From positions 1-36,352 of the forward strand of contig BQIW01000044.1 of assembly GCA_021604105.1 (NCBI GenBank): a stretch of DNA of 36,352 nucleotides, in the 5' to 3' direction. Position numbers and translations under genes: made by a program. Within the stretch, counting starts at the first letter, position 1. Each line of letters starts with the position of its first letter. Below, one piece after another: positions 12,408 through 35,876 of the stretch. The notes under the pieces are model-generated. The model had not been told where the DNA came from, did no database searches, and was given only the letters and a program-made list of their open reading frames with translations. The DNA comes from Nitrospirales bacterium. Its GTDB lineage: Bacteria > Nitrospirota > Nitrospiria > Nitrospirales > UBA8639.

Positions 12408-12800
12408 TTATATCCCAACTGCCTGAGCCTTGGTACCTTGAACCGCCAAATCCAACCAGGCCTCACGGATAAGAGACAGACAACGGATAGGGCCTTCTAA
12501 GCGCCGGGGTTCATTTTTGAGATTGGCTTGAGTCAACTCAAATTGGATATATTCATACATTCGGCGCAGATCTTTTGCGATTCCCCCACCTTCCTCCATA
12601 TTGAGGGAGGCGGATAATTCCCCAATCACTCGAAGGGCACGATCAAGAAACCGAGCCTTGTCCTGAAAATTCGAGGCCACCATCCCCTCTTGTGCTAATT
12701 TCATCGAAGAAATAGCTCCATCATATAAAATTACGACTACTTGAACGGAAGATGCTGTTTGAATTTGCGTATTTGCATAGGACTGAGCACCAACCATCAT
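12408..12800 (-). CDS. fliS: Flagellin export chaperone FliS
   Basis: FliS binds the C-terminus of flagellin in the cytosol, blocks premature polymerisation and delivers it to the type III export gate. The 130-residue product shows the family pattern: a YANTQIQTASSVQVVVILYDGAI N-terminal helix region, the central FLDRALRVIGELSASLNMEEGG and the YEYIQFELTQAN helix. An AGAGGA-like site (AGAGGA, 7 nt before the ATG at 12800) supports this start; a second ATG follows immediately. It lies 15 nt downstream of fliD and 13 nt upstream of the fliT-like gene, the usual fliDST order. Confidence 0.93.
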   Translation of the reverse strand: MMVGAQSYANTQIQTASSVQVVVILYDGAISSMKLAQEGMVASNFQDKARFLDRALRVIGELSASLNMEEGGGIAKDLRRMYEYIQFELTQANLKNEPRRLEGPIRCLSLIREAWLDLAVQGTKAQAVGI

Positions 12801-12815
12801 ACATTCATCCTCTCT

Positions 12816-14231
12816 TTAGCCATTAATTGAAGGAAATCCGTTCTGTAGCAATGACAATTGACTTTGTAATCTGGCCAATAACCCATCCAAATTGGCAAAT
12901 TTCAGGCGTTGCTGTTCCTCAAAACGGGCCAACGATTCTTCTTTAAATGAAATTTGTTTCGTAAAATCATTTACCTGTTTCGTTAATCTCTTTTGTCGAA
13001 GTGTGAGCGAGCCCGTGTCAATATCATCTAATCCATCAATTGCATTCACCACCAATTCCCCAATCCCATTGGTGCCCGTCGTGGCATTTTTGACAAACAG
13101 GTCACGAACGGCCGAAAAGTTGCTACTCAAGGCCGAATCTAAGGTCGCTTCATTTAGCTTAATCGTTCCATCGGCTGTTTGCGTTTCAAATCCAATTTGG
13201 GAAACCCCGGAATATTTCGTCAAACCGCTGATTGGGGAAAAGACAGATTCCCTGACTCGATCAAGGACCGATCGAGCTAAACTCTCTCCAACAAAAATTC
13301 CTCGCTCTTTTGTTTCGGTATTATAAAACGTGCGCTCATTCACGAATGTCACAATCTCATTGTACCCATTCACAAATTCTGAGATCGCTTCCTTGACCGC
13401 ATCATTATCTTGATTCACCGAAATCGTAACCGGATTTGTGGCGTCCACAGCTTGAAGATTGAGGGTGAGCCCATCCACGACATCAGTAAGTGTATTGCTC
13501 GAGCGGTTGATCGTAAGGGACTCGGTTCCGGCCTCGACATCCGTCACCCCCAACACGACTTCGGAATCCTGCGCGGCTTGAAATGTATCGACTCCCGTCG
13601 CCACCGTATCTAGTATCGTATCATCAGTCACAATCGTGATGGCCTGATCGAGTCCGGTTTCATTCGATGACAACACGAGACGATATTCTGGCAAAGCTTC
13701 ACTTCCCGTATTTAAGATCGAGGCACTTACCCCGGCGCCAAGATCATTAATTGCGGACCTTAAATCATCCAAGGTAGCCGTGGCATCTAAGTTCACCGTT
13801 TGAACCGAACCGGCACCCACTTGAAATTGAAATGTTCCCGATCCGCCGCTAACAATGTCCGAATCAGCTGCGGAAACCGCCGTGGAGGATGTTGAAATAA
13901 TTTGATGTGCGGAAGCCAACTGATTAACCGTCACCTGATAGGTGCCTGGGGACGCGGAAGAAGACACTGCTGCCGACAATGGTGTCTGTGCGCTGGGAGA
14001 GGCCACGTTGACTTGAGTTTTATTGAAACTGACTCGATTGCGGAGATTGCTCGCCAAACCTTGGAAGCTGAGTAATTTACCTTCCAACAAACCCAATTCG
14101 GTTTGTTTTTTTTGGGCCTGAAGCTTTTTCTGGGTCAGCCCATCAATGGGAAGGCGTTCTGCCTGAACCAGCGCATCGACTACCGGTCCAAAATCAACGC
14201 CATTTCCAAGCCCACCAAAACTAATAGCCAT
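12816..14231 (-). CDS. fliD: Flagellar hook-associated protein 2, filament cap FliD
   Basis: FliD forms the oligomeric cap at the filament tip, under which exported flagellin folds. The 471-residue product has the FliD N-terminal domain (GLGNGVDFGPVVDALVQAER at 7-26), a Ser/Thr/Ala-rich beta central region with TYQVTVNQLASAHQI, and a C-terminal domain with VNGYNEIVTFVNE and a final coiled coil (RLTKQVNDFTKQI to the LLARLQSQLSLLQ end). AAAGGA lies 7-8 nt before the ATG. Length is typical. It is separated from flaG by about 130 nt in which I see no clear sigma-28 or sigma-54 site. Confidence 0.95.
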   Translation of the reverse strand: MAISFGGLGNGVDFGPVVDALVQAERLPIDGLTQKKLQAQKKQTELGLLEGKLLSFQGLASNLRNRVSFNKTQVNVASPSAQTPLSAAVSSSASPGTYQVTVNQLASAHQIISTSSTAVSAADSDIVSGGSGTFQFQVGAGSVQTVNLDATATLDDLRSAINDLGAGVSASILNTGSEALPEYRLVLSSNETGLDQAITIVTDDTILDTVATGVDTFQAAQDSEVVLGVTDVEAGTESLTINRSSNTLTDVVDGLTLNLQAVDATNPVTISVNQDNDAVKEAISEFVNGYNEIVTFVNERTFYNTETKERGIFVGESLARSVLDRVRESVFSPISGLTKYSGVSQIGFETQTADGTIKLNEATLDSALSSNFSAVRDLFVKNATTGTNGIGELVVNAIDGLDDIDTGSLTLRQKRLTKQVNDFTKQISFKEESLARFEEQQRLKFANLDGLLARLQSQLSLLQNGFPSING

Positions 14232-14360: not shown

Positions 14361-14759
14361 CTAAATATTTTCTTCTACAAACAAACCTGACTGTCCGGAA
14401 AATAAACGCGCAAGATCTACCACCTGTTCTGAAGGTATCTGTCGGATGAGGTCACCTGATTCTTTATCCACGACTCGAAAAATCACCTGATTAATATCCT
14501 TTTCCAAAGAGATCTCAATTCGGGGATCAACCTGCTTCACCCTTTCTTGAAGGCGAGCCACTGTTGCCTGGACCTGCTCCGCAGTCAATATTTCATTCAC
14601 CGTTGAATCCTTGGAAAAGTCTGGCCCATAGACTGGCGGTTTGGTCTCTGATTTGCGCTGAATATCACCCGTGATGGATTTCTGTCCATCTCGCACGCGA
14701 ATCTCATTTCCAACGGAGATATTTATAAAAGAGGCGCTGTCAGAAAGCGTTGAAATCAT
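14361..14759 (-). CDS. flaG: FlaG-family flagellar protein
   Basis: A 132-residue FlaG protein. The family is linked to control of flagellar filament length, though its mechanism is unclear. The conserved C-terminal half is plain: a helix LTAEQVQATVARLQERVKQ, then strands with ISLEKDINQVIFRVVDKESGDLIRQIPSE, where the RVVDK/IRQIP pattern is diagnostic, and a final helix. The N-terminal 55 residues are low-complexity and variable, as usual. No clear Shine-Dalgarno precedes the ATG. The gene lies 68 nt downstream of fliC, past a strong hairpin, so it may be expressed by read-through at a lower level than flagellin. Confidence 0.9.
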   Translation of the reverse strand: MISTLSDSASFINISVGNEIRVRDGQKSITGDIQRKSETKPPVYGPDFSKDSTVNEILTAEQVQATVARLQERVKQVDPRIEISLEKDINQVIFRVVDKESGDLIRQIPSEQVVDLARLFSGQSGLFVEENI

Positions 14760-14827: not shown

Positions 14828-15655
14828 TTACTGCAGCAAGGCGAGGGCTTGCTGAGGCAACGTATTTGCTTGGGCCAGTATTGACGTACCCGCCTGAACT
14901 AATATTTGGTTCCTTACGAACTTCGCTGACTCAAAGGCAATATCAGCATCACGAATCCGTGATTCAGCAGCGGTGATATTCTCACCGGCCACTTGCAGAT
15001 TCCCAACGGCAGCATCAATCCTGTTTTGCAATGACCCGATATTCGCTCGAGCAGACGCCACGGCACTAATGGCGCTATCGATGTTAGACAATGCGTCCAA
15101 TGCGTTGCTGGAAGTTGACACATTGGTCGAAGCGAGATTTAAGGTATTTGTGTTTAAGTCATTCAGAGACAAGGTAAGCGTATCATTCGCGGAACTCCGG
15201 AAACCGATTTGGATGCTCAACGAATCATTTCCGGTTCCACTTAACAGTTTTACCCCATTGAACTCGGTCACTGAGGAAATTCGATCGATTTCCGATCGGA
15301 GGGCAACAAATTCCTGATCAAGGAAAGACCGTTCATTCGAACCAAGGATTCCACTGGCTGATTGTTCGGCAAGCTCCCGAAGACGGCCTAACAGATTCCC
15401 AATGCCTTCGGCACCACCGTCTGCAATCTGCAACAAGCTTATACCGTCATTTGAGTTTCTGACGGCTTGATTAATACTGCGAATCTGGGCCCGTAAGGTT
15501 TCGGATATTCCTAAACCTGCGGCATCATCTGCAGCCCGGGTTATTCGCAAACCCGAAGAAAGACGGGCGACCGACCCTTCCAATTGGGAACTGGACACGC
15601 CCAAGTTCCGTTGAGCGTTGAGTGATGCAACATTGTTGTTAACGACAAGTGCCAT
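14828..15655 (-). CDS. fliC: Flagellin, short form
   Basis: The filament subunit. The 275-residue protein has the conserved N-terminal D0/D1 (VNNNVASLNAQRNL, ARLSSGLRITRAADDAAGLG, NDGISLLQIADG) and C-terminal D1/D0 (NLQVAGENITAAESRIRDAD, ILVQAGTSILAQANTLPQQ). The variable D2/D3 part is nearly absent: only about 50 Ser/Thr/Asn-rich residues (around 140-190) separate the cores. That stretch is a natural place for O-glycans. An AAGGAGG site lies 5-6 nt before the ATG, the strongest in the window. A sigma-28-type promoter, a 5'-leader hairpin and a strong downstream hairpin frame it as a highly expressed single-gene unit. It lies directly downstream of the sugar and glycosyltransferase locus. Confidence 0.98.
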   Translation of the reverse strand: MALVVNNNVASLNAQRNLGVSSSQLEGSVARLSSGLRITRAADDAAGLGISETLRAQIRSINQAVRNSNDGISLLQIADGGAEGIGNLLGRLRELAEQSASGILGSNERSFLDQEFVALRSEIDRISSVTEFNGVKLLSGTGNDSLSIQIGFRSSANDTLTLSLNDLNTNTLNLASTNVSTSSNALDALSNIDSAISAVASARANIGSLQNRIDAAVGNLQVAGENITAAESRIRDADIAFESAKFVRNQILVQAGTSILAQANTLPQQALALLQ

Positions 15656-15955: not shown

Positions 15956-16504
15956 TCACAGAGGAGGGGTAATATTTCGAGAAAGACAAGGAATCACTTC
16001 ATACTCCAACATGTCTGCGATTCGAACCCCATCTTCGTTTTCTCGAGCATTCAGTAATTCTTTGATCCAGAACGTTAGGTCATGGATGACCTCAGGCTTT
16101 TTAAGCCCCATAGATTCATGAACCTGTAGCCACTCAAGGTAATCGGCTATTTGGCCGAACCATTGGTCTAGCTGGTGGTATTTTCCATCCCCTCGTCGGA
16201 AAGCATTAACAAACTTCTGTCCTTGATCGCGTAGCTGTGCTCCGAATTGTTGGCCTGTTTTTTCAGAATACTGCACGATGGTTTCCACATGTTTACTCAC
16301 GGCCGCTATCGATCCAAACGAGCTCGCCAATTTGGCCAAGGTGGGAGGCACTAACTCCCGATCCGTCATCTTCCGATTCCCAACTATTAATTCCGTCACC
16401 AAACACCCCTTGGCCTGAGCGCGGTCACTCAAATTGGCCAGAACTTCCCCTAGCTGCACACGATCACCCACTTCCCAGGTTTCTTCATCCAATTGTACGT
16501 GCAT
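15956..16504 (-). CDS. Protein of unknown function between the sugar locus and fliC
   Basis: A 182-residue protein I do not recognise. The N-terminus (MHVQLDEETWEVGDRVQLGE) is strand-rich and followed by LSDRAQAKGCLVTELIVGNRKMTDREL. From about residue 60 it is helical, with YHQLDQWFGQIADYLEWLQ and a C-terminal helical pair ending IPCLSRN. There is no signal peptide or membrane span, so it is probably cytosolic. The ATG at 16504 lies inside the end of the upstream GT9 gene (20-nt overlap) and is preceded by a run of eight G, which can serve as its ribosome-binding site. Coupling to the GT9 gene and position before fliC suggest a role in flagellin handling or glycosylation, but that is inference. 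Confidence 0.72.
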   Translation of the reverse strand: MHVQLDEETWEVGDRVQLGEVLANLSDRAQAKGCLVTELIVGNRKMTDRELVPPTLAKLASSFGSIAAVSKHVETIVQYSEKTGQQFGAQLRDQGQKFVNAFRRGDGKYHQLDQWFGQIADYLEWLQVHESMGLKKPEVIHDLTFWIKELLNARENEDGVRIADMLEYEVIPCLSRNITPPL

Positions 16505-18140
16505 ACAGCCCCCCCCTTGGATCATGAGAAAACATTCCTTCCAACTGATTATAATTTTCCTCCCCTCGAGTGCGAAATACATGATACGCTCGAGCATGTT
16601 CCTCGGCCATTCCGCTAAGAGTCAAAGCCTCCAAGCTAAAGGTATCTCGGAAAAAAGCCATCGCTAAAGGACCAAAGGCCAATGACGGCCTGGCGATCTG
16701 TTGCATCGTGAGTGTATCCACTTTTAACTGGTTCTGGCGTGCCTTTAACTTGTTAACTGGAATAGGCCTTTGACGACACAGATCCAATACGGTATCGGCT
16801 TGAAGACACAACTGATCGAGCTGGGGAGCCAAACGACGCCATACCTGCTCGCAGTCTGAAAAATCCGGTGTAGGCGTTGGGGGAAAAGGGACCAGACTAG
16901 GAGTGCCGGTAAAGGATTGATACCAGTATTGCCGCCAATACTCCGCATACCAGGAGACGCGCGGCTCTTCCGTTCCCGCTCTTATCCTAAATGTCCCTAA
17001 CTGATCTTCATTGACCCCACCTTCATATACTCGGATCTTGGACGAAAACGATGGAAAGGGCCGTTTACCTAAGAGATGTAAGCAGAGGTCGGCCACCTCT
17101 TGAGGAATGATCTGGTCTTTACAGGCATGGTGAGGACAGACCTTATCGAATCCGCATGGGCCACACATGATCTCGGGCTGAACCACCCAATGCCCTGATC
17201 CAAACGGCCCGGTTTCCCAAAAATTCACATGGCCCACCGAGAGGTTCAGGACCGGCGTATTCACTCCCACAGCCATGTGCATGGGCCCAGTGTCATTAGT
17301 CACCATCAACACACAATGTTCAAGCAAGGCAACCAGTTGTGGCACAGTGGTTTGGCCAACGGCTTCACATATGTCTCCCAATCCCCCCGCCTGCCGGTAA
17401 CACCGTATGGCCTCCTGAACTTCCGACTCCTCTTTCTTGGTGCCAATCAATACAAATCCGACCGGATGTTTTTGGCTGAGACACGCCATCATTTGTCCAA
17501 AGTATTCCGGTCGCCAGGCTTTCATCGGATCACTGGCGCCGACTTGAATGCCAATCCACTCATCGGCAGTTCCTGCTTGTCTCACATAGATCCGTGCCCA
17601 TTCTTTCATGTGCTGGGGCACAGATAAGCAAAGAGGATTAAACGAACCCGGACCGCTCCCACCAAGGGAAAAAAGATCCACGATATTGAACCGATTCAAT
17701 TGCCGATACACATGGAAATCCACGAAATATTTCATCCAAGGATTTTTCACCACGAAACTCCCATCCGGGGTCGTAGTCATTCCTCGCTCATCTGCACACC
17801 CGAAATATTTCACCAGAAACGCACTGCGGCGATTAAAGGTCAGGTTCACGACACGATCGTACCCAACCTGGACTAACGGTTGAACCCACCCGGCAAGTTC
17901 CCGGTAAAGGGCGACCACATCCCGCCCTCGCACCCGGCTTTCATCCATCAGCAGCTGAAAGTCAAACATTAACACCTGTCGAATCCCAGGAATTAGGCTG
18001 GCGACATGGGCAAATTCTTTATCAACAATCAGATCAATGGCCACACCGGGCCATTCTTCCTCTAACCGTGAAAGAAGGGGGACCATCTGAATTAAATCAC
18101 CCATCCGGGTAATATTAATAATGAGGATTTGTTTTTTCAT
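16485..18140 (-). CDS. GT9-family glycosyltransferase (heptosyltransferase-like) with C-terminal extension
   Basis: A 551-residue protein whose first ~375 residues are a GT9/heptosyltransferase (GT-B fold), the enzymes that move heptose from ADP-heptose to LPS core. It shows INITRMGDLIQMVPLL with Asp15 in the catalytic-base position, VGASDPMKAWRPEYF, NDTGPMHMA (282-290) and a cysteine cluster (Cys326, 329, 335, 340) typical of WaaF-type members. The last ~175 residues are a helix-rich extension without a recognisable domain. The ATG at 18140 is preferred over the TTG at 18143; no Shine-Dalgarno is clear. A run of eight G near the 3' end overlaps the start of the next gene. Its acceptor could be LPS or, given the neighbours, flagellin. 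Confidence 0.88.
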   Translation of the reverse strand: MKKQILIINITRMGDLIQMVPLLSRLEEEWPGVAIDLIVDKEFAHVASLIPGIRQVLMFDFQLLMDESRVRGRDVVALYRELAGWVQPLVQVGYDRVVNLTFNRRSAFLVKYFGCADERGMTTTPDGSFVVKNPWMKYFVDFHVYRQLNRFNIVDLFSLGGSGPGSFNPLCLSVPQHMKEWARIYVRQAGTADEWIGIQVGASDPMKAWRPEYFGQMMACLSQKHPVGFVLIGTKKEESEVQEAIRCYRQAGGLGDICEAVGQTTVPQLVALLEHCVLMVTNDTGPMHMAVGVNTPVLNLSVGHVNFWETGPFGSGHWVVQPEIMCGPCGFDKVCPHHACKDQIIPQEVADLCLHLLGKRPFPSFSSKIRVYEGGVNEDQLGTFRIRAGTEEPRVSWYAEYWRQYWYQSFTGTPSLVPFPPTPTPDFSDCEQVWRRLAPQLDQLCLQADTVLDLCRQRPIPVNKLKARQNQLKVDTLTMQQIARPSLAFGPLAMAFFRDTFSLEALTLSGMAEEHARAYHVFRTRGEENYNQLEGMFSHDPRGGLYARTIG

Positions 18141-18179
18141 CAAAAATTGGCAGTCGCGGAAAATTACCCCATCATAGGT

Positions 18180-19997
18180 TCAAAGAAAATCCCGCTTTTC
18201 CTGTCGGTACTCATCCATCATCAAAATTAGTAATTCCTCACGGCTTAATCGGGCTTCAGGCCCTTTATTCCGAATACTTTTCGCCACATCCACTAACTCC
18301 ACCCGATCAGTGGGAGGAAACTGCTTCAGCATGGGGATCAATTCCGGCGTCTTCCCACTTCGCGCCACCAGGGATTCAGCATGACGGTCTCCCTGAAGGA
18401 TAGATCCTAACCGGTCAGGACTCGCCATACCCACGGCGCCTAAGAATGTCTTCATCCGATGTCCGTACGTATGCGCCTCTAATACCCGCTTTCTGGATAA
18501 TTCAGCCATGGCCACTCGCCTGACTGGTTCATGCAGATAGGTTTGGACGGTTGGGAGGAGCTGATCCGGATTGTTGATTACCGCCACCATTGATTCATCA
18601 AAGAGGGCCGGGAGCAAGGTGCGAGTATCAACCACTTGAAACGCCCCGCAACTGGCTAATTCGAATGTCCTGGGATTCACCCCATCTCCCTGCGGATCGA
18701 ATCCATCTCCCGTATACGAATGCAAATTAATATTGACCGAGGTGGCATTAAAAATTTTCACACTGGTGGAGGTATCAATACGTGCGCCCCCTCTCTGAAG
18801 AACCGGCGCTAACGCCCCCGGGTTGTCCCATTCATTCCCCCACAATTTAAATGTCCACTCATGGCCTACCAGGGATGGGAGGATATGTCGCCGATTTCTA
18901 TATCCTGCTCCTAAAAACGAGACGTCGGCACCAAACTCCTGTCGCTCTTCTTCCGTGAAGGTCATAGGGTGATGAATGGCCGGATCAGCAGCCAAGGGAA
19001 GATAGGAGACGTGTTTGGCACCGGCTTTTCTGAAAGCGTCCAAGCATGCCGCTTGTTGCATCACAAACCAAAAGTCATACCCCGTCACCATCTGCTGCCA
19101 ATAGGTTAAATGCCGAAAATTTTCCACAAACCACATGGCCGTTAACACCTTCTTTCGACGCATTTGCTCTAAAACGGCCATGGTCAATGGCGCCTGGGAC
19201 AAGGCAAACACAAGATCCGGGGGATCTTCTGCCACATGAGCAAGGCTTATCACCGCCAGCGTTTCACTCATTCGTTGCTGGACTGTGAGCCGCAACCGGG
19301 GATCACGGATCGTTTCCAAATTCTGATAACCCGCATAATGAGGACTATGATCCACCCAACTTACACGATGTCCAAGTCCCTCCAATGCATTGACCACATA
19401 TCGGGCGATCGGCAACGACCCGCCATAAATAGGTCCGACCACCATGATGTGAAGCGCCCCGCTTAATTGTTGAGCGAGATGCTCACGAAGCTGCAGACGA
19501 AAGTGTTCATAGGTCTCACGATGAATCGTGGCCGCAGGTTCGTAACTCAGAATACGCACCCGCTTGGCTTCCTGTGTCACTTGGACAGCTATATCAGTCA
19601 TGGAACCCGTCAGCCATATCACCCCTTCACCCCACCCTTCCAACGCCCGGACTGAAACACAATCCGCAAATTCCGAAAGGTCCGGCACAATGACCATTAT
19701 GACCTGGTCACGGGGCAACATCTGACGCAAGGCTTGCACGTGGTAAATGAGCCCCACGCCAAGGAGGACAAGAGTTTCCTCGGCTTGACACTCTTTCACG
19801 CGTTCTTCAGCCCAGCGCTCCGCCTCGCGAATCGGATCATACGCACTATGGAGATATCGGGAGTTGACAAGCGCGGTGGGCATTCCAGATTTAGATGGTT
19901 GGATCGACAGGGTTCCTCCTTGTACCCGGAGGATCTGAGCGGCAAGAATCGGATCCTGGTCGCGAAGAATATCGATATTCTTTTTCAACACATCCAT
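18180..19997 (-). CDS. Maf-like N-terminal domain fused to a CgeB-like glycosyltransferase
   Basis: A 605-residue protein. Residues about 40-180 resemble the N-terminal part of Maf motility-accessory factors, the enzymes that place nonulosonic acids on flagellin: SAYDPIREAERW (51-62), LVLLGVGLIYHV (77-87) and MVIVPDL (101-107). From about 183 on the pattern is that of CgeB/YkvP-type GT-B transferases: MVVGPIYGGSLPIARYVV, WFVENFRHL, YLPLAADPAIH, DVSFLGAGYRNRR, and the donor-site stretch GVNPRTFELASCGAFQVVD. An AGGA lies 8 nt before the ATG. It sits between two GT9 genes, two genes from the flagellin unit. I infer a flagellin or surface-glycan transferase; the donor sugar is unknown. Confidence 0.78.
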   Translation of the reverse strand: MDVLKKNIDILRDQDPILAAQILRVQGGTLSIQPSKSGMPTALVNSRYLHSAYDPIREAERWAEERVKECQAEETLVLLGVGLIYHVQALRQMLPRDQVIMVIVPDLSEFADCVSVRALEGWGEGVIWLTGSMTDIAVQVTQEAKRVRILSYEPAATIHRETYEHFRLQLREHLAQQLSGALHIMVVGPIYGGSLPIARYVVNALEGLGHRVSWVDHSPHYAGYQNLETIRDPRLRLTVQQRMSETLAVISLAHVAEDPPDLVFALSQAPLTMAVLEQMRRKKVLTAMWFVENFRHLTYWQQMVTGYDFWFVMQQAACLDAFRKAGAKHVSYLPLAADPAIHHPMTFTEEERQEFGADVSFLGAGYRNRRHILPSLVGHEWTFKLWGNEWDNPGALAPVLQRGGARIDTSTSVKIFNATSVNINLHSYTGDGFDPQGDGVNPRTFELASCGAFQVVDTRTLLPALFDESMVAVINNPDQLLPTVQTYLHEPVRRVAMAELSRKRVLEAHTYGHRMKTFLGAVGMASPDRLGSILQGDRHAESLVARSGKTPELIPMLKQFPPTDRVELVDVAKSIRNKGPEARLSREELLILMMDEYRQEKRDFL

Positions 19998-20068: not shown

Positions 20069-21304
20069 CTACTTCGAGACTTCCATCCGAATACCTTGAT
20101 TCGCCACCTGAGACAACGCCTCCCACGTATCTTTTCGCCGGAGGACAGCCTCGTCAGGGATGCCATCCCTGGTATAAAACGCCCCCCACTCATCTCTATT
20201 GCTGATCCAGAGATCCCACCCATCTGTTGTGGCATTCACCGGAGCTTCCCGCATTAAATTGACGGTTTCCATCACAGGCCAATAGGCAGAGAATGATCCA
20301 GCAGCGCTTACTTCACGGACATCCGGACTCTCCCGAAGTTTGGCTCCCGCGCATTGCCACACATAATGACCAATCCCATAAGGGCCCGTTTCATGGACTC
20401 TGGCCTGGGAGAAATACCAGCCGATCGCCCGCGCCCCACACATCGCTCCGAGATGCAATGGTCCCGTATCCGATCCGACCACCCACTGACACCGATTAAG
20501 AAGAGCCACAAGCTGGGGCAACGAGGTCCGGCCACACCCATTCACGACCCGATTGAGATATTTAGCGGGAAGACGATGCTCCAAGGCCAATGCCGCTTCC
20601 CGTTCTCCCGCACCCCCGACCAATAGCAGATAGCACTGAGGAATGTGCTCAGCGCATGCGGCAATCAGGTCTTGCCACACAGAAAGGGGAACTCGCCGGT
20701 CGGCATCTCCCGCACCAAGAACAATTCCGATAAGAGTAGAAGGCTCTCCATTCACCGGCAGTTCCAGCTCAAAGGGCAATGACACCTCCTGGGCCTGTAA
20801 GTAGGAAACATCCAATGGCGGAGAAACCTGACACAACCCGCAAAACGCATCCGCTAAATGCACCCGGTTGCTCCCTCGATCTCGAGCAATTTGACGTAAA
20901 TATCCCGCCCATGCCGGAAGCGTCTGATTCAATGGTCCATACTCGCCAGGACCGACAACCAGACCACTCAATACATGGGCAGCAAGTATCCCGCGAGGAT
21001 GGTTATTCAAATTATAGGCCAATGCATACGGGGGAAAGGCACAGTCAGCTAAATAGCGAGTGGCTCGGGCTAGTTGTTGATCACAATCCGTCATCCTGGT
21101 CGTGGCGAATTCATGCCATTGTTCCCCATTCCAAGGGAAAACCCTGTCCACACAAGGGAAAAGTTCTCCAAGCGCCACCAAGGGCGAAGGGCAAAGGAGA
21201 TCAAGAGGTCGCTCAGGATAGGCGGTTTGCAGAGCAGTCAAAACAGGAAGAGATTGGACCAGATCACCAAGCCGAGCGAATTGTATTAAGAGGGCTCGGG
21301 ACAT
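20069..21304 (-). CDS. GT9-family glycosyltransferase (heptosyltransferase-like)
   Basis: A 411-residue GT9 protein with LIQFARLGDLVQSLPVL at the N-terminus (Asp14 at the catalytic-base position), VLGAGDADRRVPLSVW in the middle and GSDTGPLHLGAMCGARAIG (277-295) at the nucleotide-sugar side. Unlike its paralogue at 16485-18140 it lacks the four-cysteine cluster and the long C-terminal extension, though a C-terminal ~70-residue stretch (to AVLRRKDTWEALSQVANQG) follows the core. No clear ribosome-binding site precedes the ATG. The gene starts 33 nt after the giant transferase gene. Two divergent GT9 enzymes in one locus suggest two different heptose, or similar, linkages. Confidence 0.9.
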   Translation of the reverse strand: MSRALLIQFARLGDLVQSLPVLTALQTAYPERPLDLLCPSPLVALGELFPCVDRVFPWNGEQWHEFATTRMTDCDQQLARATRYLADCAFPPYALAYNLNNHPRGILAAHVLSGLVVGPGEYGPLNQTLPAWAGYLRQIARDRGSNRVHLADAFCGLCQVSPPLDVSYLQAQEVSLPFELELPVNGEPSTLIGIVLGAGDADRRVPLSVWQDLIAACAEHIPQCYLLLVGGAGEREAALALEHRLPAKYLNRVVNGCGRTSLPQLVALLNRCQWVVGSDTGPLHLGAMCGARAIGWYFSQARVHETGPYGIGHYVWQCAGAKLRESPDVREVSAAGSFSAYWPVMETVNLMREAPVNATTDGWDLWISNRDEWGAFYTRDGIPDEAVLRRKDTWEALSQVANQGIRMEVSK

Positions 21305-21337: not shown

Positions 21338-24300
21338 TTAAGTTGCGAGGGCATGACGGTCAGGATGTGCCGACTGCAGGAGAACCTCTAAATCGTGTAA
21401 TCCCTCATAATCGGGCTTTAAGAGGCTTAACATCTCAAATTGTTGCTTGGCCACATCGAGTCGACTCGCACGAAATTCCACCCCGGCCAGAGCAAAGCGC
21501 ATATCGCAGTCTGCAGGATTTCGTTCGACATACCGCGCGAGCCGTTCCCCCAAGCCTTTCCATCGTTGCAGGGATGTGCCGGCCTGAATCAACCCATTTA
21601 TGGCTTCGACATCATCCGGATGATCGACCAGCACCTGTTCAAAAATTTTCCAGGCTTCTTCCAAATCTCCCATCCCCATACACGCCATTCCCAAACCGAT
21701 GCGGGTTTTTCGAGAATCTGCGCCACATTGAAGAGCGCGACGAAATGACAGGGCCGCCTCACCACATTGCTGGGATTGCATCAACAGAATTCCCTGCAAC
21801 CAGTGACCCGACCCATTGCTGGGATCAGATTGAAGGAGCGCCTGGATTTGCTCAGTCGCCTCAGACAGATCCTTCCCGCTGAGCGCCAGTTTGGCGAGTC
21901 GTTCCCGTGCCGCTCGATCTTCTCCCATACTCAGTATCCGTTTCAAAAATGCCCGCTCCCCATCCAATAGCTGGAACGATTGGCAAAGCTTGGCTGCCCA
22001 TCTAAGCACTGCGCCATCATCCGGCCAATCTCGATACTCGGAAAGGAGAGCCTGTAATTCACGGTCGTCCTGGCTATTCAAGCCCTCGCCTGCGGCATGC
22101 CGCTGACGTAATAGGAATTCCTGCACCCGTTGAACTCGTTGCCACTGCGTTATTTCCCTATCGCCCTGCAGTGCCTCGAGCGACGGTTGAAGCCTCCCGT
22201 CACGCAAGGAATACCGGTTGGCATAGCCTGCCGGAACCGTATGGAAATCCTCATCGACCACAATGGAGGAAGCCCACCGTTCCATGAGCACAATGCCATT
22301 GTGCCGTTCGGCCCCATGATCCTTCCTTCCGGGAGTTTGATGTTCCAAATGATAGAGCACACTTTCCGGTTGATAGATGACTTTCTTGCCCCGTTTGCCC
22401 ACTTTGAGGCACAGGTCCACATCCTCGAACCCGTTCTGATAGATCTCGTCAAATTGCCCAACCGCATTAAATTCCTCAGGGCGAATGAGCATACAAGCCG
22501 CAGTGACAACCTGAAACTCTTGACGAATATTGGCCGCGCGCAGGTCTCCTGGAGCACCACGGAATATATGGTAGGGCGTCAAACAATGTTTTGCGAAAAC
22601 CACGCCGGCATGTTGAATAGTGTTATTTGGATAGAGAAGCTTGCTCCCGACAATGGCAACATCCTGATGGCTCTCGACTTCATTCAATAAAGCCCGCAAC
22701 CATCCTGGCTTCGGAATTGTATCGTTATTTAAAAAGACCAGAAAACGCCCCTTGGCAGAAGCGGCCCCTTGGTTGCAGGCTTTGGCAAACCCATAATTGG
22801 CCGGATTCGTGATGACCTGAATATCCCCACTTAAAGAAGACAGAAATGCTGAAGTCTCATCGGTGGATGCATTATCGACGACAATGACTTCATACGAACA
22901 GCCATCCGTGACCTCCGCCAAACGAGTCAAGCACTGCCGGGTCAATGCCACTTTATTCCAAACTGGAATAATGATTGAACAATCAAAGGAACACTTGGCA
23001 TGGTTGATTGGAAAATAAGAGGGCTCTGGTGAACTCTGTAATTTCGACTGAGGCACCCTGTTTGAGGATGTTACGTCTCGGCCCAACCAGGCCTGTTCAT
23101 ACTGAGGAAGCACATGTTCCATAAGACGATGGTTCAATACCCAGGCTCGGAGATGATCACCTTCCCTTTCTAAGGCACCTAAATCATGAATTCGTTCGCG
23201 AATCGCCTTGATCCAGGCTTGTGGTTCGTGCGGCAACCGTATGATGGGAGCATGTTGATGGGGAAAAATATCCGTGCCAATAACCGGATAGCCCAATATT
23301 CCATACTGTAAAATTCTAATATCACTTTTGGCTTCATTGAATGGATTTGGCACCAATGGCGCCAATGCAAGATCAAGATTGAGACTCGCCAATTTTTTCG
23401 GATACTGAGCCACGTCTACCATGGAAAATGTTTCGCTGATCACACCTGGACTACTGGCCATGCGGGGTGCATCTCCGAGGAATACCCATTCAACCTCATC
23501 TTTCAGGGCCTCAATAATCGTTTCCAAAATCGCCGCATCACCCTTGTGCACCTTCGCTTGTCCTGCCCATCCAATCCGAGGACGGGAACCGGCTTGACGT
23601 TGGGGTTTGAAATCCGCCCACTCCTGACGTGTTAAACAATTAAGAAGAACCGTCGACTTTATTCCTCGTTGGTTCAAATCAGCGTGAATAGGTTCAGTAG
23701 AGACCGTCACACAATTCGCCAGGGCCATCAGACGAAACATTCCTTCAAGACGTTCAGGCGTGAAAAACTCATGATTCGGATTATCGACAGGGATCTTCCA
23801 TAGCAAATCGTCACAGTCATAGACGATTCGGGTGCCTTGACTTCGGGCCTCCTTTAAAGTTTCTTCTGACAGCTTACAATTACGCTGAATGGCCCAAACC
23901 TGCGCGACACCCATAGGCGGCAGTGTGGCGTCACCTGAAAGAATATTAAGATCATTCACAATTGCGCCTTTTCCCCAAATCCCTTCACCAGCCAGGAGTG
24001 GTTGAAGGAGTCGAATACGACCACATATATAATCAGACCCAATCACCGAAACGCTTCGCCAGCCCTCCGGAGAAGTACCTCGTGGGCTATCAAGAATCAC
24101 TTCCCAAGGACGTTCATCAGTCTGAACCCATCGGCGAGTGGGGCCCTCAGAACCTTCGAGTTGTTCTCGAGCATGGAGTTCCTTCACGAAGGGAGACGAA
24201 CAATACAGCGATTTCACACCTGTTTGATAATTCTCCCAATTTTTAGTCGCAATGTCCTGAACATTTCTTCTCCGACATTCATCTTTGAATGACCGGTACT

Positions 24301-26533
24301 CAGCATGGGTCTCTTCTTCAATACCATCAGTGGCCTTAAATGTATGTGTGTCAATGTGGGCTGCTCTTCCGGCGGGAAGATGTACCCCCACCTGTTCATC
24401 CTCCATATAAGCATTCTGCAAACCCTGCAACTGGATTCTCAAACCATAATCCGCATCCTCCTCGCCGTACAATCCATAATCTTCAGACCAAAATCCCAAG
24501 ACTTCGTGAGTTCGCTTTGGGATGAGTGTACATGCCCCATTTAAATTCCCAACTTTCGGCCGAATGGGCACTCCCCGCATCTCACGCATGGGATAACTCA
24601 CTGGTTCAAAGCTATAAGCAATAGCGCCCAATTCCGGGATATGATCGATGACCCCAACCATCCTGGATAACCAGCCGGGCTTTTCAATAACAATGTCATT
24701 GTCCAACTTAAGGTAATAATCAGCATCAGGTTCCCTGCTCCAGGCCAAATTCGAAGCCTTCGCAATCCCTACATTCTCTGGCAACAAAATCAGATTCGTG
24801 ATAAAACCTTGCTGATAAAGGGCTAGTAAATACTCTGGCGTACCATCTGTACTTCCGTTATCCACAACCGTGATAACATGGGGGAAACAGGTATGCTGAA
24901 AAAGCGCAGTGATTGCCTGTTTCGTAAATTCCAATCGATTAAAAGTCACCATGCAGATATTAACGAATTTCCCAGTCCTGATTTTGCCTTGAAACTGATA
25001 ATTGTTTATGTTCTGAGCCTTGGGGGCAGGAAATTTATTCCGGTAAGCTTGTTGCACGTGTCGGGTTTCCCGATGAGCACGTTCTGGATTGGAATTAATG
25101 ACACCCTCTGGGTTCTCATAATACAACCCAAGAAAGGTGGCTATGTGCTTCATAGGATACCGTTCAGCAATCCTGCACCAAAATTCATAATCGGTAGCCG
25201 ACGGCAACGTCTCATCGAAATACCCAACTTCATCATGTACCGATTTCCTCCACATGGCCTGTGGACCCATGTGACACCCTGACAGCATGATATCTAGTGA
25301 AAATTCCGGACGAATGTGATAGCCACAACGAATATGATTGACGAACCGCTGATTTTCAAAATTCGTGACTAGCACATCTCCATAAACTAAAGCGACATTC
25401 CGATGAGCATCCAACTCTGACGCCAAGATCTCCAGGGCATCTACCCGGCGTCGATCATCAGTTGGAGCCAGGGTAATATACTGACCACGAGCCATCCGAA
25501 TTCCACGATTACAGGCTGCAGCGGGGTTTTCCCTTCTACTGGTTCGTACATAAATGATATTAGAGAATCGAGCCTGAAATTCCGCAATAATCTTGTATTC
25601 TTCAGTTTGGGAACCCGTTTCCACGATAATGATTTCTATTTCCTTCGCAATCGTTTGTTCTTCCAAATCTACTAATGCTCCACGCATAAACCGTTCGGCA
25701 TTATACGCGGCTACTATAACGGAGATTCGAGGAAGCACTGTTTGAGATTTCTGAAGAGTTGAATCCGAGACAGAAAGATCGGAATAAGCTTGTGCTGTCA
25801 CAGATGCCTCCACAATTGGTCGAACAAAAGAAGAATGATGTGCAGACTCCTTGAGTAAATAGAAATCTGCAGGCTTGGGAATACACACCGTCTTCCCCTG
25901 ATAGCCTAGGGTCCAGGGGTACCCCTGGATCAACGAAACATCTTTTCGATACACCAAGGCAAAGCCATTTCCAATTTTGTCATCTTTTTCCCGACTATCA
26001 ACTAGAACAAGCCTCTCCCCAAAGAATTGGGAAAAGAATTCCTTCATGGTCCCTGATGAAAAGATATGGTAATGGCAGTGAAGAAATCGTCCAGCTTCCG
26101 GCTCAGTCTCTGCTGTGGCATTTAATACATAATCTTGCACAATATGCTTCCAGTCAGTCAGAGGTTTCCCTCTATCCCCTGGAGCAGCTTCCGGATGTGG
26201 GGCAATGAGATACAAAAATCCCCCCGGCTTAATGATTCGATACCATTCCCACAACGTTTCCAAAAAATTAGGACAGTGCTCAATTACGTGGGACGACAAC
26301 ACAAATCCTTCAGATTCGCTGGGAACCGGAATGGCATCAGCCTCAGCCAAGATATCTAATGGAGCTGCTTCCCCGACTAGTGCAATTTGCTCATGATGAT
26401 AGATGGCATCTGGCAGTCCGACGGTCCTCGTCTCTAACCCAAACGGGTTATGGGCAGAGGGACCAATTTCTAAACCTTTCAACCCATCCAGCCAGCGATG
26501 TGCCATTTGACTTTCTGGAAAGATATGTTTCAT
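21338..26533 (-). CDS. Giant multi-domain protein: methyltransferase-GT2-GT2-GT4-GT2-TPR
   Basis: A 1731-residue polypeptide carrying six modules in one open frame. Residues 1-~200: SAM-dependent methyltransferase (LEIGPS, LSSHVIEH, RIIKPGGFLYL). About 269-476: GT2 (ISVIVAAYNAERF; TDD at 358-360). About 523-731: second GT2 (VNICMVTFNRLEFTKQAI, VVDNGSTDGTPEY, KLDND). About 828-1150: GT4/GT-B-like (DYICGRIRLLQPLL, YDCDDLLW, RIGWAGQAKVHKGDA, DIRILQYGILGYPVIG). About 1183-1396: third GT2, rhamnosyltransferase-like (CSIIIPVWNKVALTRQCL, FLNNDTIPKPGW, GFEDVDLCLKVG). About 1500-1731: TPR repeats. The ATG at 26533 has GGAAG 5 nt upstream; a TTG lies at 26545. It could build a repeat unit of an O-antigen or flagellin glycan. 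Confidence 0.92.
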   Translation of the reverse strand: MKHIFPESQMAHRWLDGLKGLEIGPSAHNPFGLETRTVGLPDAIYHHEQIALVGEAAPLDILAEADAIPVPSESEGFVLSSHVIEHCPNFLETLWEWYRIIKPGGFLYLIAPHPEAAPGDRGKPLTDWKHIVQDYVLNATAETEPEAGRFLHCHYHIFSSGTMKEFFSQFFGERLVLVDSREKDDKIGNGFALVYRKDVSLIQGYPWTLGYQGKTVCIPKPADFYLLKESAHHSSFVRPIVEASVTAQAYSDLSVSDSTLQKSQTVLPRISVIVAAYNAERFMRGALVDLEEQTIAKEIEIIIVETGSQTEEYKIIAEFQARFSNIIYVRTSRRENPAAACNRGIRMARGQYITLAPTDDRRRVDALEILASELDAHRNVALVYGDVLVTNFENQRFVNHIRCGYHIRPEFSLDIMLSGCHMGPQAMWRKSVHDEVGYFDETLPSATDYEFWCRIAERYPMKHIATFLGLYYENPEGVINSNPERAHRETRHVQQAYRNKFPAPKAQNINNYQFQGKIRTGKFVNICMVTFNRLEFTKQAITALFQHTCFPHVITVVDNGSTDGTPEYLLALYQQGFITNLILLPENVGIAKASNLAWSREPDADYYLKLDNDIVIEKPGWLSRMVGVIDHIPELGAIAYSFEPVSYPMREMRGVPIRPKVGNLNGACTLIPKRTHEVLGFWSEDYGLYGEEDADYGLRIQLQGLQNAYMEDEQVGVHLPAGRAAHIDTHTFKATDGIEEETHAEYRSFKDECRRRNVQDIATKNWENYQTGVKSLYCSSPFVKELHAREQLEGSEGPTRRWVQTDERPWEVILDSPRGTSPEGWRSVSVIGSDYICGRIRLLQPLLAGEGIWGKGAIVNDLNILSGDATLPPMGVAQVWAIQRNCKLSEETLKEARSQGTRIVYDCDDLLWKIPVDNPNHEFFTPERLEGMFRLMALANCVTVSTEPIHADLNQRGIKSTVLLNCLTRQEWADFKPQRQAGSRPRIGWAGQAKVHKGDAAILETIIEALKDEVEWVFLGDAPRMASSPGVISETFSMVDVAQYPKKLASLNLDLALAPLVPNPFNEAKSDIRILQYGILGYPVIGTDIFPHQHAPIIRLPHEPQAWIKAIRERIHDLGALEREGDHLRAWVLNHRLMEHVLPQYEQAWLGRDVTSSNRVPQSKLQSSPEPSYFPINHAKCSFDCSIIIPVWNKVALTRQCLTRLAEVTDGCSYEVIVVDNASTDETSAFLSSLSGDIQVITNPANYGFAKACNQGAASAKGRFLVFLNNDTIPKPGWLRALLNEVESHQDVAIVGSKLLYPNNTIQHAGVVFAKHCLTPYHIFRGAPGDLRAANIRQEFQVVTAACMLIRPEEFNAVGQFDEIYQNGFEDVDLCLKVGKRGKKVIYQPESVLYHLEHQTPGRKDHGAERHNGIVLMERWASSIVVDEDFHTVPAGYANRYSLRDGRLQPSLEALQGDREITQWQRVQRVQEFLLRQRHAAGEGLNSQDDRELQALLSEYRDWPDDGAVLRWAAKLCQSFQLLDGERAFLKRILSMGEDRAARERLAKLALSGKDLSEATEQIQALLQSDPSNGSGHWLQGILLMQSQQCGEAALSFRRALQCGADSRKTRIGLGMACMGMGDLEEAWKIFEQVLVDHPDDVEAINGLIQAGTSLQRWKGLGERLARYVERNPADCDMRFALAGVEFRASRLDVAKQQFEMLSLLKPDYEGLHDLEVLLQSAHPDRHALAT

Positions 26534-26556
26534 AAGTACTTCCAATTCATCCCATT

Positions 26557-27570
26557 TTACGAGACACGAACACGCGCTCCGCTAAATTGAACGGGGGCTC
26601 TCTTCCCCTGATTCTCCATCTGTTCACGATACCAGCCTAAAGTTTTCTTCAACCCAGCCTGAAGAGTGATCTTTGGAGAAAATCCTAACTGGACTGTTGC
26701 CTTCTCCACGTCAAGTAGGCGAATAGGAATCATAGAAGGCTTGCTGGGATTGGTGATCACATTGGCATTCTGGTATTCATCAACTGCGAGAAGCGTCGTT
26801 AACACATCATGCACACGACACCCTTTTCCATAACCAATGTTTACCGGATCGAACTGATTTAACCTGGCCATCGCTAGCATCACGGCATCAATAAAGTCAT
26901 CCACATATATTAAGTCTCTGACATCTTCACCTGTTCCCCAGACCTCGAGAGGATTTTGCCGTTCAACAACTTTGCGGAGAAGGGCCGCGGTCACATGGGA
27001 ACGTTCAAAATCAAATTTGTCATATGGCCCATAAACATTAGATGGTCTCACGACTACCGTCTTCATCGAATCCTTGATTTTTTCAGAATAGATTCGACAC
27101 AGGACCTCCCCATATCGTTTCATCCATCCCACACTGAAGTAGGCTTCATAGGGATCCCCGGCAAACATGTCCGCCTCGGATACCGGCCGATCCCCACTGG
27201 GTGGATAGGCCGCACTACTGCTAATAAAGAGAAACTTCTTTACCTTTGCCTGATAGGAAGCCTCCAACATCTGGGCGTTCATCACGACGTTCGGCGTCAC
27301 ATGAGCTAAAGGCTGGGTCGCCATGACCGCCGCACCTGAGGTATTCGCGGCACACATGAAGACATAATCCATGCCCTCTACGACCCGACGACACTCTTCC
27401 ATGTTCGTCAAATCGGCTTTGACATATTCCAGATCCTGGTGCTCGAATTGCGGGCTACGTGTATGCAATGTCCCGCGTACATAGCTTCCCTCTTCCACCA
27501 AACGCTTAGCCATATTGGTTCCCAGAAATCCTCCCGCACCCGTCACTAATACTTTACTACCCTTAAACAT
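26557..27570 (-). CDS. Extended SDR, NAD-dependent nucleotide-sugar epimerase/dehydratase
   Basis: A 337-residue extended short-chain dehydrogenase resembling GDP-fucose synthase (Fcl/WcaG)-type enzymes. It has the NAD-binding GAGGFLG (11-17), FISSSAAYPP (115-124), VVRPSNVYGP, and EVWGTGEDVRDLIYVDDF, the usual late motif. The catalytic YxxxK is altered: in FSVGWMKRYGE, Lys151 is kept but the position four before it is Val, not Tyr. I chose the ATG at 27570, which overlaps the upstream stop by 8 nt and has AAGGAG 6 nt before it; the frame extends to 27669 only as a shadow. It probably reduces, epimerises or dehydrates a nucleotide sugar (GDP- or dTDP-). Confidence 0.86.
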   Translation of the reverse strand: MFKGSKVLVTGAGGFLGTNMAKRLVEEGSYVRGTLHTRSPQFEHQDLEYVKADLTNMEECRRVVEGMDYVFMCAANTSGAAVMATQPLAHVTPNVVMNAQMLEASYQAKVKKFLFISSSAAYPPSGDRPVSEADMFAGDPYEAYFSVGWMKRYGEVLCRIYSEKIKDSMKTVVVRPSNVYGPYDKFDFERSHVTAALLRKVVERQNPLEVWGTGEDVRDLIYVDDFIDAVMLAMARLNQFDPVNIGYGKGCRVHDVLTTLLAVDEYQNANVITNPSKPSMIPIRLLDVEKATVQLGFSPKITLQAGLKKTLGWYREQMENQGKRAPVQFSGARVRVS

Positions 27571-28120
27571 GAGCGACTCCTTCATCCCGTTGGGACACAA
27601 TCGGCTGTTTGACCGGCCACCAGATTCCCAAAGTTGGATCATTCCAAGGTAACGTAAATTGCCCTTCACGGTTATAATTGGTCGTTTGCTTATAGTGGAA
27701 AATGGCCTGCTCAGACAGCACTAGATGAGCATTTCCAAACTTGGGTGGGATCAACACTTGTTGACGTTTCTGATCTGAGAGCGTGAACGATTCCCACTGT
27801 TGATACTGTGGGGACATGGAATCGCAATTCACTACGACCAAATAAAATTTTCCCCACAAACATGACACCAGCTTCCAGGTCTCTTGGTCTCCATGAATGC
27901 CTCGCAACACATGCCTGCCAGACACGGAGATGTCATCCTGCATAAAAGGCATATCAATTCCAGCTTGCCGATACAGGTCCTCGTTAAACGTTTCAACATA
28001 GGTACCCCGAAAATCTTCAAAAATTGTCGGTGGAGTGACCAGTCTCACGCCTTCCAGACGGCAGAAAGAGACGGCTAAATTAGGAGGCGGCGAAATAGTT
28101 TTTCCGGTGAAGATATTCAT
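27563..28120 (-). CDS. RmlC-like cupin nucleotide-sugar epimerase
   Basis: A 185-residue RmlC/dTDP-4-dehydrorhamnose-3,5-epimerase-like cupin. It shows IFEDFRGTYVETFNEDLY (33-50), VLRGIHGDQETWKLV (71-85; His76 in the position of the catalytic histidine), VLIPPKFGNAHLVLSE and the WNDPTLGIWWP end. His76 to Lys83 is 7 residues, against 10 in classic RmlC, so it belongs to a variant subgroup. Related enzymes epimerise 4-keto-heptoses in Campylobacter capsule synthesis, which fits the heptose genes here. Start ATG at 28120 has GGAG 7 nt upstream, and it overlaps the preceding SDR gene by 41 nt. The next gene overlaps its stop by 8 nt. Confidence 0.85.
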   Translation of the reverse strand: MNIFTGKTISPPPNLAVSFCRLEGVRLVTPPTIFEDFRGTYVETFNEDLYRQAGIDMPFMQDDISVSGRHVLRGIHGDQETWKLVSCLWGKFYLVVVNCDSMSPQYQQWESFTLSDQKRQQVLIPPKFGNAHLVLSEQAIFHYKQTTNYNREGQFTLPWNDPTLGIWWPVKQPIVSQRDEGVAHV

Positions 28121-29108
28121 CATGGTGCTCCAGGTACCAATCCCATGTGTGCTGTAACCCCTCTTGAAGACTGACTTGCGGTGCATACCCGAGAAGATGC
28201 TTTGCCAAAGAAATATCCATCACACGCCGGGGAAATCCGGTGGGTTTGTTGTGATCAAATCGGGCCCGGAACGGCACAACCGATTGAAGTGCTTCTACTA
28301 ATTCTTTGATGGTATAGCCGATACCACTGCCTAAATTGACATAACGCCCACCCGTGCCATGGTACAAAGCAAGAATCACTCCATCAGCCACATCACCACT
28401 ATAGGCAAAATCACGAATGGCGGTGCCATCTCCCCAAATCACTACCGGATCCTCTTTCGAAAATATCCGTCGCATGAGGGTGGGAATAACCATGGCATTG
28501 GCAGGATCGAAATTATCTCCAGGTCCATACACATTGCAGGGACGCACCACCGCATAGTGCTTCAGACCGTACTGTATTTGGTAGGCGCGAACTTGCAATT
28601 CGGCCATTCGTTTGGCCCATCCAGGGAACATATCCATTGGTGGCCCTTCATCCTCACCTTCCTGTTCCTTGAAAATTTCCGCACTCGGGTACGCGCCAAT
28701 AGAGGAGGTATAAACCACCCGATCAACCTTATTCAGGCGACAGGCCTCCAACATATTGGTATTCATCATCAACAACGGGACGAAAAAACTTGCCGGCTTT
28801 GATTTCGTGACCTCAATGGAACCTTTGATTCCCGCCACATGAAAAACACAATCCATGTCTTTCACTATCCGTTGGCAAAATCCAAAATCGCACAAATCAC
28901 CCTTCACATACTCCACCTTATCTTCAACCTGGATCTCATCAAGAGACACACTTCGAACGGAGGCCCCAGCCTCTATCAACCGACTTACAATTTTCCGTCC
29001 GATCAACCCACTTCCCCCCGTCACGACAATATTTTTTCCATAAAAGAACTGCATAATGGAATCGGCAATCATGTCCTGGCGTATTTGCTCAGCAATAGTT
29101 TGAAGCAC
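28080..29108 (-). CDS. Extended SDR, NAD-dependent nucleotide-sugar epimerase/dehydratase
   Basis: A 342-residue extended SDR with a GTG start at 29108 preceded by AAGGAG 7 nt upstream. It has GGSGLIG (31-37), VAGIKGSIEV (91-100), VYTSSIGAYP (132-141), VVRPCNVYGPGDNFDPANAMVIPTL and VIWGDGTAIRDFAYSGDV. The YxxxK site reads FPGWAKRMAE: Lys166 is kept, but Pro162 stands where the tyrosine is expected. It is a close paralogue of the SDR at 32459-33469 (both carry the GIKGS signature and FVPxL.....N.LEA). It probably acts on the same class of nucleotide sugar, perhaps at another step. Confidence 0.87.
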   Translation of the reverse strand: MLQTIAEQIRQDMIADSIMQFFYGKNIVVTGGSGLIGRKIVSRLIEAGASVRSVSLDEIQVEDKVEYVKGDLCDFGFCQRIVKDMDCVFHVAGIKGSIEVTKSKPASFFVPLLMMNTNMLEACRLNKVDRVVYTSSIGAYPSAEIFKEQEGEDEGPPMDMFPGWAKRMAELQVRAYQIQYGLKHYAVVRPCNVYGPGDNFDPANAMVIPTLMRRIFSKEDPVVIWGDGTAIRDFAYSGDVADGVILALYHGTGGRYVNLGSGIGYTIKELVEALQSVVPFRARFDHNKPTGFPRRVMDISLAKHLLGYAPQVSLQEGLQHTWDWYLEHHDEYLHRKNYFAAS

Positions 29109-29137
29109 GGACTCACTCCTTAGAGGTTGTAGGACCT

Positions 29138-29899
29138 TTATTCGAACACCACATACGACACTCGAGAGGCAAACGGAAATCGCTGAATTTTCAAATGATT
29201 CAATCCAAAGACTTCCATCAGGGCGAGGGTCTCTCCCGGGGAATCCGGATCATTCAATTCATCAAACCCCAGAATGGTGCCCTTGGTCATTCGAGGACGA
29301 AGGAGCTCAAGGCACTTGACCGTTGGTTCATACAAATCTAAATCAAAATAGGCCATAGCCACGATGGTTTCCGGGCATCTGGCCAGATATTGAGGCAACT
29401 CCTCCACCACATCCCCCACGCACAATTCATGTTTTTTAATATGGGTTAACGGATTAAGTGTTTCATGAAGACTGAGTAACTGTTGAAGAGTTTCTTCATA
29501 GTGAGGCGAGACGGCTAATTGTCCATTCACCATCATATTGGATTGCCCATCTTTTGCATGGATAGAAGGAAACCCGGAAAACGTATCAAATCCAACAATT
29601 TTCCGATGCCGGTTAAAGGGTTCATAGATCCCTCGCAATGCGGAAAACAAGGCAAGATTTTGCCCCCACCGTACTCCAAACTCCATAACGACTCCTTGAA
29701 CAGCGATGATCTGACGATACAAGAAGTCCATGAATAACATGCGAGCCAAATGCTTGGATTCTAGAAATAGTCCAAGATTCGATAGCAATTGGTCAGGGGG
29801 AATCGGATTTTGATAGAGCAAATCCCCCATCTGCTGCCGAGCCGCTTGCTCACTTGGATTCGCATAAGATTTAATCTGTAATTTCTCCGCGTTCACCAT
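29138..29899 (-). CDS. TylF/MycF-like SAM-dependent O-methyltransferase
   Basis: A 253-residue protein of the macrocin O-methyltransferase (TylF) family, Mg-dependent enzymes that methylate sugar hydroxyls. It shows VVMEFGVRWGQNLALFSALR (70-89; SAM motif), KIVGFDTFSGFPSI (100-113), FDLDLYEPTVKCLELLRPRM and ILGFDELNDP near the metal site. In the last, Asp-Glu stands where related enzymes have Asp-Asp. Start ATG at 29899 overlaps the upstream stop as TGATG, with GGAG 8 nt before it; GTG at 29902 is an alternative. Chain ends VSYVVFE. Likely it O-methylates the locus sugar or its glycan. Confidence 0.85.
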   Translation of the reverse strand: MVNAEKLQIKSYANPSEQAARQQMGDLLYQNPIPPDQLLSNLGLFLESKHLARMLFMDFLYRQIIAVQGVVMEFGVRWGQNLALFSALRGIYEPFNRHRKIVGFDTFSGFPSIHAKDGQSNMMVNGQLAVSPHYEETLQQLLSLHETLNPLTHIKKHELCVGDVVEELPQYLARCPETIVAMAYFDLDLYEPTVKCLELLRPRMTKGTILGFDELNDPDSPGETLALMEVFGLNHLKIQRFPFASRVSYVVFE

Positions 29900-30882: not shown

Positions 30883-30888
30883 AACCCA

Positions 30889-32004: not shown

Positions 32005-32019
32005 TGGACTCGTCCAGGG

Positions 32020-32487
32020 TTACAGCTGGATACTCCAATCGTCTAAGTCATCCACCGAGACATTACTCGCGCGGCACACTCTGGTTGCATTTCTCACTCG
32101 GGCTAAGAGCAGATTTTTCATCTGATTTCTGATCCCATTTAATTGATGAGCTCTTTTCAACCACTGATCGTACAGTTTGGGTTCAGCCTTCATTCTCTCT
32201 TTGCACATCCAGATTTCGTAATTAATTTGGGCAAGTACAATAATGATCCTAACGTTCCGCCCTGACAATTTGATCTGATGTCGATCAGCCCATCCATCAA
32301 TATCATGCTCCAGATCAGCGATTTCTGTTCTCACAGATGTCCGGATCGATTCATGGAAGGCCTCTTTCAATTGATCAACAGTTAAGCGATCGACCAGATC
32401 TCCCAACCCAGGTACAAATCGAGGACTTGAAGGTCCTCCTGTCTTCCGTTTCCGTTTTTTAGGCGCTAAGAAGGTTTTTCCGCTCAT
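32020..32487 (-). CDS. Small basic protein of unknown function in the sugar locus
   Basis: A 155-residue protein I do not recognise. The N-terminus is strongly basic (APKKRKRKTGG) and Pro/Ser-rich, followed by predicted helices (LTVDQLKEAFHESIRTSVRTE, IADLEHDIDGWADRHQI, IIIVLAQINYEIWMCKERM), and an acidic C-terminus (VSVDDLDDWSIQL). No signal peptide or membrane span. The ATG at 32487 lies inside the preceding SDR gene (29-nt overlap), with GGGA about 9 nt upstream; the frame extends further upstream only as a shadow. Position in the chain of overlapping genes makes it likely to be expressed. The 15-nt gap to the reductase gene suggests co-translation. Confidence 0.68.
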   Translation of the reverse strand: MSGKTFLAPKKRKRKTGGPSSPRFVPGLGDLVDRLTVDQLKEAFHESIRTSVRTEIADLEHDIDGWADRHQIKLSGRNVRIIIVLAQINYEIWMCKERMKAEPKLYDQWLKRAHQLNGIRNQMKNLLLARVRNATRVCRASNVSVDDLDDWSIQL

Positions 32488-33469: not shown

Positions 33470-33500
33470 AAACATCCTTGGCTAAATCGATAGAAAAATT

Positions 33501-35301: not shown

Positions 35302-35302
35302 G

Positions 35303-35863: not shown

Positions 35864-35876
35864 GTGGTCCTGCCTC

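Follow-up and report, generated by a model that had tools for sequence, protein, structure and literature searches.

A Maf N-Terminal Domain Joined to a CgeB-Type Glycosyltransferase beside the Flagellin Genes of Nitrospirota

The Locus and Its Gene Order

The window analysed here, a stretch of 36,352 nucleotides, spans an entire contig (G000:C44) from a Nitrospirales-type genome. At its centre lies a gene, hereafter the fusion, whose product joins a Maf N-terminal domain to a CgeB-type transferase. Its features are listed below, with the basis of each assignment in parentheses.

12408..12800 (-), fliS (Pfam)
12816..14231 (-), fliD (Pfam)
14361..14759 (-), flaG (Pfam)
14828..15655 (-), fliC flagellin, 275 amino acids, with a Ser/Thr-rich centre (Pfam)
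16485..18143 (-), GT9-family transferase with a C-terminal extension of approximately 190 amino acids (Pfam, neighbourhoods)
18180..19997 (-), Maf_N-CgeB fusion glycosyltransferase, 605 amino acids (ORF list, Pfam, alignment)
18183..18419 (-), conserved helical C-terminal segment, fusion residues 527-605 (alignment and DSSP on the model)
18423..19457 (-), GT-B catalytic region, fusion residues 181-525 (Pfam, fold match, conserved residues)
19452..19997 (-), Maf N-terminal domain, fusion residues 1-182 (hhalign, 5MU5 match, Foldseek)
20069..21304 (-), second GT9-family transferase (Pfam, neighbourhoods)
21338..26545 (-), 1735-amino acid protein with a methyltransferase, several GT2 domains and TPR (Pfam)
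26557..36335 (-), variable sugar cassette (content and comparison with relatives)

The neighbours of the fusion, namely the two GT9 genes, the GT2/methyltransferase/TPR gene and the genes for FliC, FlaG, FliD and FliS, all lie on its strand. A sequence-only reading of this DNA had placed fliC and two GT9 genes close downstream of it. This is correct for fliC, 2.5 kb downstream, and for the GT9 gene at 16485-18143, but the GT9 gene at 20069-21304 is upstream, the fusion standing between the two. In the downstream GT9 protein, the extension (residues approximately 360-552; 16485-17070, minus strand) has no significant Pfam match and may be a second acceptor-binding part. The 1735-amino acid protein (21338-26545, minus strand) differs in length and content among relatives.

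The Two Halves of the Fusion

In Maf, the central domain is a Maf_flag10/MptE-like (PF01973), sialyltransferase-like one, whereas the fusion has a CgeB-type GT-B in its place; the C-terminal helical domain of Maf resembles FliS/flagellin. The catalytic domain of Maf resembles sialyltransferases and uses nonulosonic acids, and what its N- and C-terminal domains do has been described as unclear (PMC11339370).

Taken as a single sequence, residues 1-181 of the fusion have no match in a Pfam scan, PF20157 included. They are too divergent for Pfam, and we therefore used profiles instead. A PF20157 search of the window's own genome also gives no match, a failure of sensitivity that does not mean absence. 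We compared a profile of 49 N-domains of fusion orthologues (profile A) with a profile of 20 N-domains of Nitrospirota proteins bearing the Maf catalytic domain (profile B). With hhalign they match with a probability of 99.9% (E-value 2.1e-31) over 170 columns, while the control, the fusion N-domain profile against the N-terminal half of the GT9 neighbours, gives 0.7%. The top PDB sequence match of the fusion profile is 5MU5, the Magnetospirillum Maf (E-value 4.9e-4); the full-length fusion sequence finds no relative in PDB by sequence. In deep orthologues Maf_flag10_N (PF20157) itself rises over its curated cut-off (best E-value 2.9e-12).

When the whole model was used for a fold search, GT-B structures took up the matches, and the N-domain was therefore folded by itself (pLDDT 94.4). 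Judged by this model and its structure matches, the domain looks Rossmann-like. 5MU5 is the top match both in Foldseek (E-value 3.5e-5, the sole match below 0.001) and in VIA-align (Z 14.9, 174 aligned, 3.6 Å; runner-up Z 8.4), and residues 1-182 of the model superpose on residues 9-240 of its chain. From the profile, Pfam-in-orthologue and structure matches together we conclude that residues 1-180 are a complete, genuine Maf N-terminal domain, homologous over its full length to that of Maf (M. magneticum, PDB 5MU5; C. botulinum CbMaf). The motifs SAYDPIREAERW (residues 51-62) and LVLLGVGLIYHV (residues 76-87) fall in conserved columns of the alignment of 49 divergent orthologues, in which H50, S51, E58, W62 and G80 are invariant and Y53, P55, G82, Y85 and H86 nearly so.

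The stretch from residue 181 to 525 is a CgeB-type transferase region of GT-B fold. Two Pfam domains exceed their cut-offs there, DUF3880 (PF12996; residues 288-366, E-value 1.8e-14) and Glyco_trans_1_2 (PF13524; residues 370-519, E-value 3.8e-29). The fusion thus shares with CgeB/YkvP-type proteins (PF13524 and PF12996, GT4-like) a catalytic domain, the GT-B fold and the invariant R443/E446 region. In the full-length model (pLDDT 81 overall), residues 181-525 match retaining GT4-family GT-B enzymes, e.g., BshA (Z 23.5, 308 aligned, rmsd 3.5). The residues invariant among 33 divergent orthologues include N424, H426, N441, R443 and E446, and catalysis is for this reason probably intact. These matches bear out both halves of the sequence-only reading, a Maf-like N-terminus and a CgeB/GT-B catalytic half. 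Its claim that the standard Maf catalytic domain is missing also holds: a Pfam scan finds PF01973 neither in the fusion nor in its own genome.

Distribution, Flagellin Linkage and Exchange with Maf

We surveyed 395 Nitrospirota genomes for the fusion, counting full-length or nearly full-length matches, tallied by hand. About 129 of the 395 carry it, mainly in single copy, and 127 of these 129 have a strong flagellin (E-value below 1e-15), a count not corrected for phylogeny. Where the places of both genes are listed (96 genomes), flagellin lies within 5 kb of the fusion in 74 and within 30 kb in 86. The order GT2-GT9-fusion-GT9-FliC-FlaG-FliD-FliS is repeated across Nitrospirales, and the fusion-GT9 pair recurs in deeper classes across the phylum, often with paralogous Maf_N-CgeB proteins. 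In nearly every locus the GT9 with the C-terminal extension comes after the fusion. The island of complete close relatives follows flgL/fliW-type genes (fliW read by eye) and precedes fliC. The linkage to fliC for which a survey of homologues had been proposed is therefore strong. The route is not universal, since both the fusion and Maf are missing from 59 strong-flagellin genomes of the phylum. Family f22 has a divergent fusion, though Ser/Thr are scarce in several of its flagellin centres.

Two variant arrangements occur in the phylum. A 959-amino acid ORF near flagellar genes in another class (L085:4092-6968) consists of a GT-B, a Maf N-domain and a CgeB-type GT-B, and deep lineages (L077-L091) have a second Maf_N-CgeB paralogue of approximately 560 amino acids near the main fusion (e.g., L087:6997-8676).

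A contig scan reaching close relatives only gives matches that are all from Nitrospirota. CgeB-like proteins on plasmids of other phyla lack the Maf N-domain that the fusion has, and their matches span only residues from 182 on. An Acetoanaerobium plasmid match to the N-domain of a deep orthologue (tblastn) was rejected, as by eye it reads as a true Maf. The N-domain tree is compatible with a single origin of the fusion as well as with two; the fusion may also be present or described outside the 395 genomes surveyed. In the open-access literature subset we found no prior description of CgeB/DUF3880 with flagella or of Nitrospira flagellin glycosylation.

True Maf (PF01973, E-value below 1e-30) is found in 20 of the 395 genomes, and none of the 20 has the fusion; three fusion genomes with weaker PF01973 matches (G244, G389, G391) were left out of the Maf count. 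Among strong-flagellin genomes of the two families nearest to the window's genome (f1 and f2), 86 have the fusion only, 8 Maf only, 1 neither and 0 both, numbers that, like their Fisher test, ignore phylogeny. Like the fusion, Maf adjoins flagellin, and in sister genomes its loci occupy the same position before fliC-fliD-fliS; the two enzymes alternate among lineages. The flagellin is 617-643 amino acids long at Maf loci versus approximately 275 at fusion loci. The filament genes and the glycosyltransferase appear to be swapped as a block.

The two kinds of loci also differ in NeuB. Strong NeuB is found in 19 of the 20 Maf genomes, in 14 on the Maf contig within approximately 32 kb, whereas it is absent from 15 of the 26 fusion genomes tested and linked to the fusion in none of the 26. 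The window's own genome has a NeuB-like gene (G000:C69) unlinked to the fusion, and nonulosonic acids may thus be made there for other uses. Weak NeuB matches (E-values approximately 1e-9 to 1e-14, approximately 345 amino acids, profile 52-239) occur in nearly all genomes and were set aside as probable DAHP-synthase relatives. The filament proteins differ in size as well: Maf-type loci (L197-L207) have a flagellin of approximately 620-640, a FliD of approximately 775 and a FliS of approximately 160 amino acids, the fusion loci 275, 470 and 130.

A Candidate Flagellin O-Glycosyltransferase

An N-terminal flagellin-binding module followed by a GT-B domain makes a working flagellin O-glycosyltransferase in FlmG (PMC7591256). 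The fusion is like the FlmG of Caulobacter, an enzyme of cytoplasmic flagellin O-glycosylation, in this plan; FlmG, however, has TPR repeats and uses pseudaminic acid, whereas the fusion has no TPR in a Pfam scan and a Rossmann-like N-domain instead. By analogy with the FlmG plan, the acceptor side is most likely the task of the Maf N-domain, and the CgeB domain would use another donor. We infer the following scheme for the activity, the donor, the acceptor sites, the sequence in which sugars are added and the function of the N-domain. With a probability of roughly two in three, the fusion is a flagellin O-glycosyltransferase: its Maf N-domain aids flagellin recognition, and the sugar that its CgeB-type domain transfers is probably something other than a nonulosonic acid. 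It would act in the cytoplasm, the Maf N-domain (1-180) most likely recognising or holding flagellin while the CgeB-type domain draws on its donor. The adjoining GT9 and GT2 enzymes would then lengthen or vary the glycan. Their donors would come partly from the variable cassette alongside and might include a GDP-heptose derivative.

The cassette (26557..36335) encodes SDR epimerases, RmlC-like, AKR, methyltransferases, transketolase halves, NUDIX and, cut by the contig edge, the C-terminal part of a D-glycero-D-manno-heptose 7-phosphate kinase (HddA; 35877-36335, minus strand; NF049969, E-value 1.2e-15). Relatives (L183, L184) have an intact HddA and a GDP-mannose 4,6-dehydratase-like SDR gene. 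Judging from these genes, HddA and the dehydratase-like SDR of the relatives would fit a GDP-heptose derivative as the donor. One genome (G047) has a fusion locus without the cassette, and the core step therefore cannot depend on it in every lineage. Within the short flagellin, the D1 loop is the probable acceptor: Ser/Thr make up 36% of residues 141-185 in the window's flagellin versus 14% elsewhere.

The same locus can be read in other ways. The N-domain might be a degenerate Rossmann domain of the nucleotide/SAM-binding kind, with a part in catalysis or structure (dimer) instead of recognition, flagellin still being a possible substrate. Methyltransferases do come next after Maf in the structure search with the N-domain (Z 7-8), and a weak methyltransferase likeness has been noted for Maf too (PMC11339370); but flagellin-linked enzymes retain the domain next to either of two unrelated catalytic domains, and we consider this role somewhat unlikely. 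The fusion could instead extend a glycan whose first sugar is attached by GT9 or another enzyme, its Maf N-domain binding the glycoprotein. The GT9 with the C-terminal extension nearly always adjoins the fusion, and, being linked as tightly, could be the enzyme touching the protein. The several transferases in the cluster imply an oligosaccharide, and Maf_N-CgeB paralogues number two or more in deep lineages. Such a division of labour is nevertheless unlikely, as only the fusion carries the domain common to a known flagellin O-glycosyltransferase, and it is the fusion that alternates with Maf.

That the locus makes a surface polysaccharide, its flagellar neighbourhood being incidental, would agree with the variability of the sugar cassette and with the CgeB, GT9 and GT2 families, which in general serve polysaccharide synthesis. 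We judge it very improbable in view of a fliC linkage kept across the phylum, the tight co-occurrence with flagellin, the Maf N-domain itself and the swapping of the fusion with Maf together with flagellin type.

Returning to the flagellin O-glycosyltransferase, it is tempting to hypothesize that the Maf N-domain is a portable flagellin-targeting module found on two unrelated catalytic domains, and that Nitrospirota have swapped enzyme, donor sugar and flagellin type as one cassette; we give this broader idea an even chance. With a Maf N-domain on a different transferase next to flagellin, functions of the acceptor side can be told apart from those of the donor side, and a natural Maf_N-CgeB enzyme makes the role of the domain directly testable by domain-binding and swap assays. 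The group carrying the fusion, Nitrospira-type bacteria, includes nitrite oxidisers. In this widespread group the fusion would imply that flagellin is glycosylated with sugars that are not nonulosonic acids. Our findings suggest that the flagella of Nitrospira-type bacteria bear a different kind of sugar, and that a flagellin and its glycosyltransferase are swapped as a pair.
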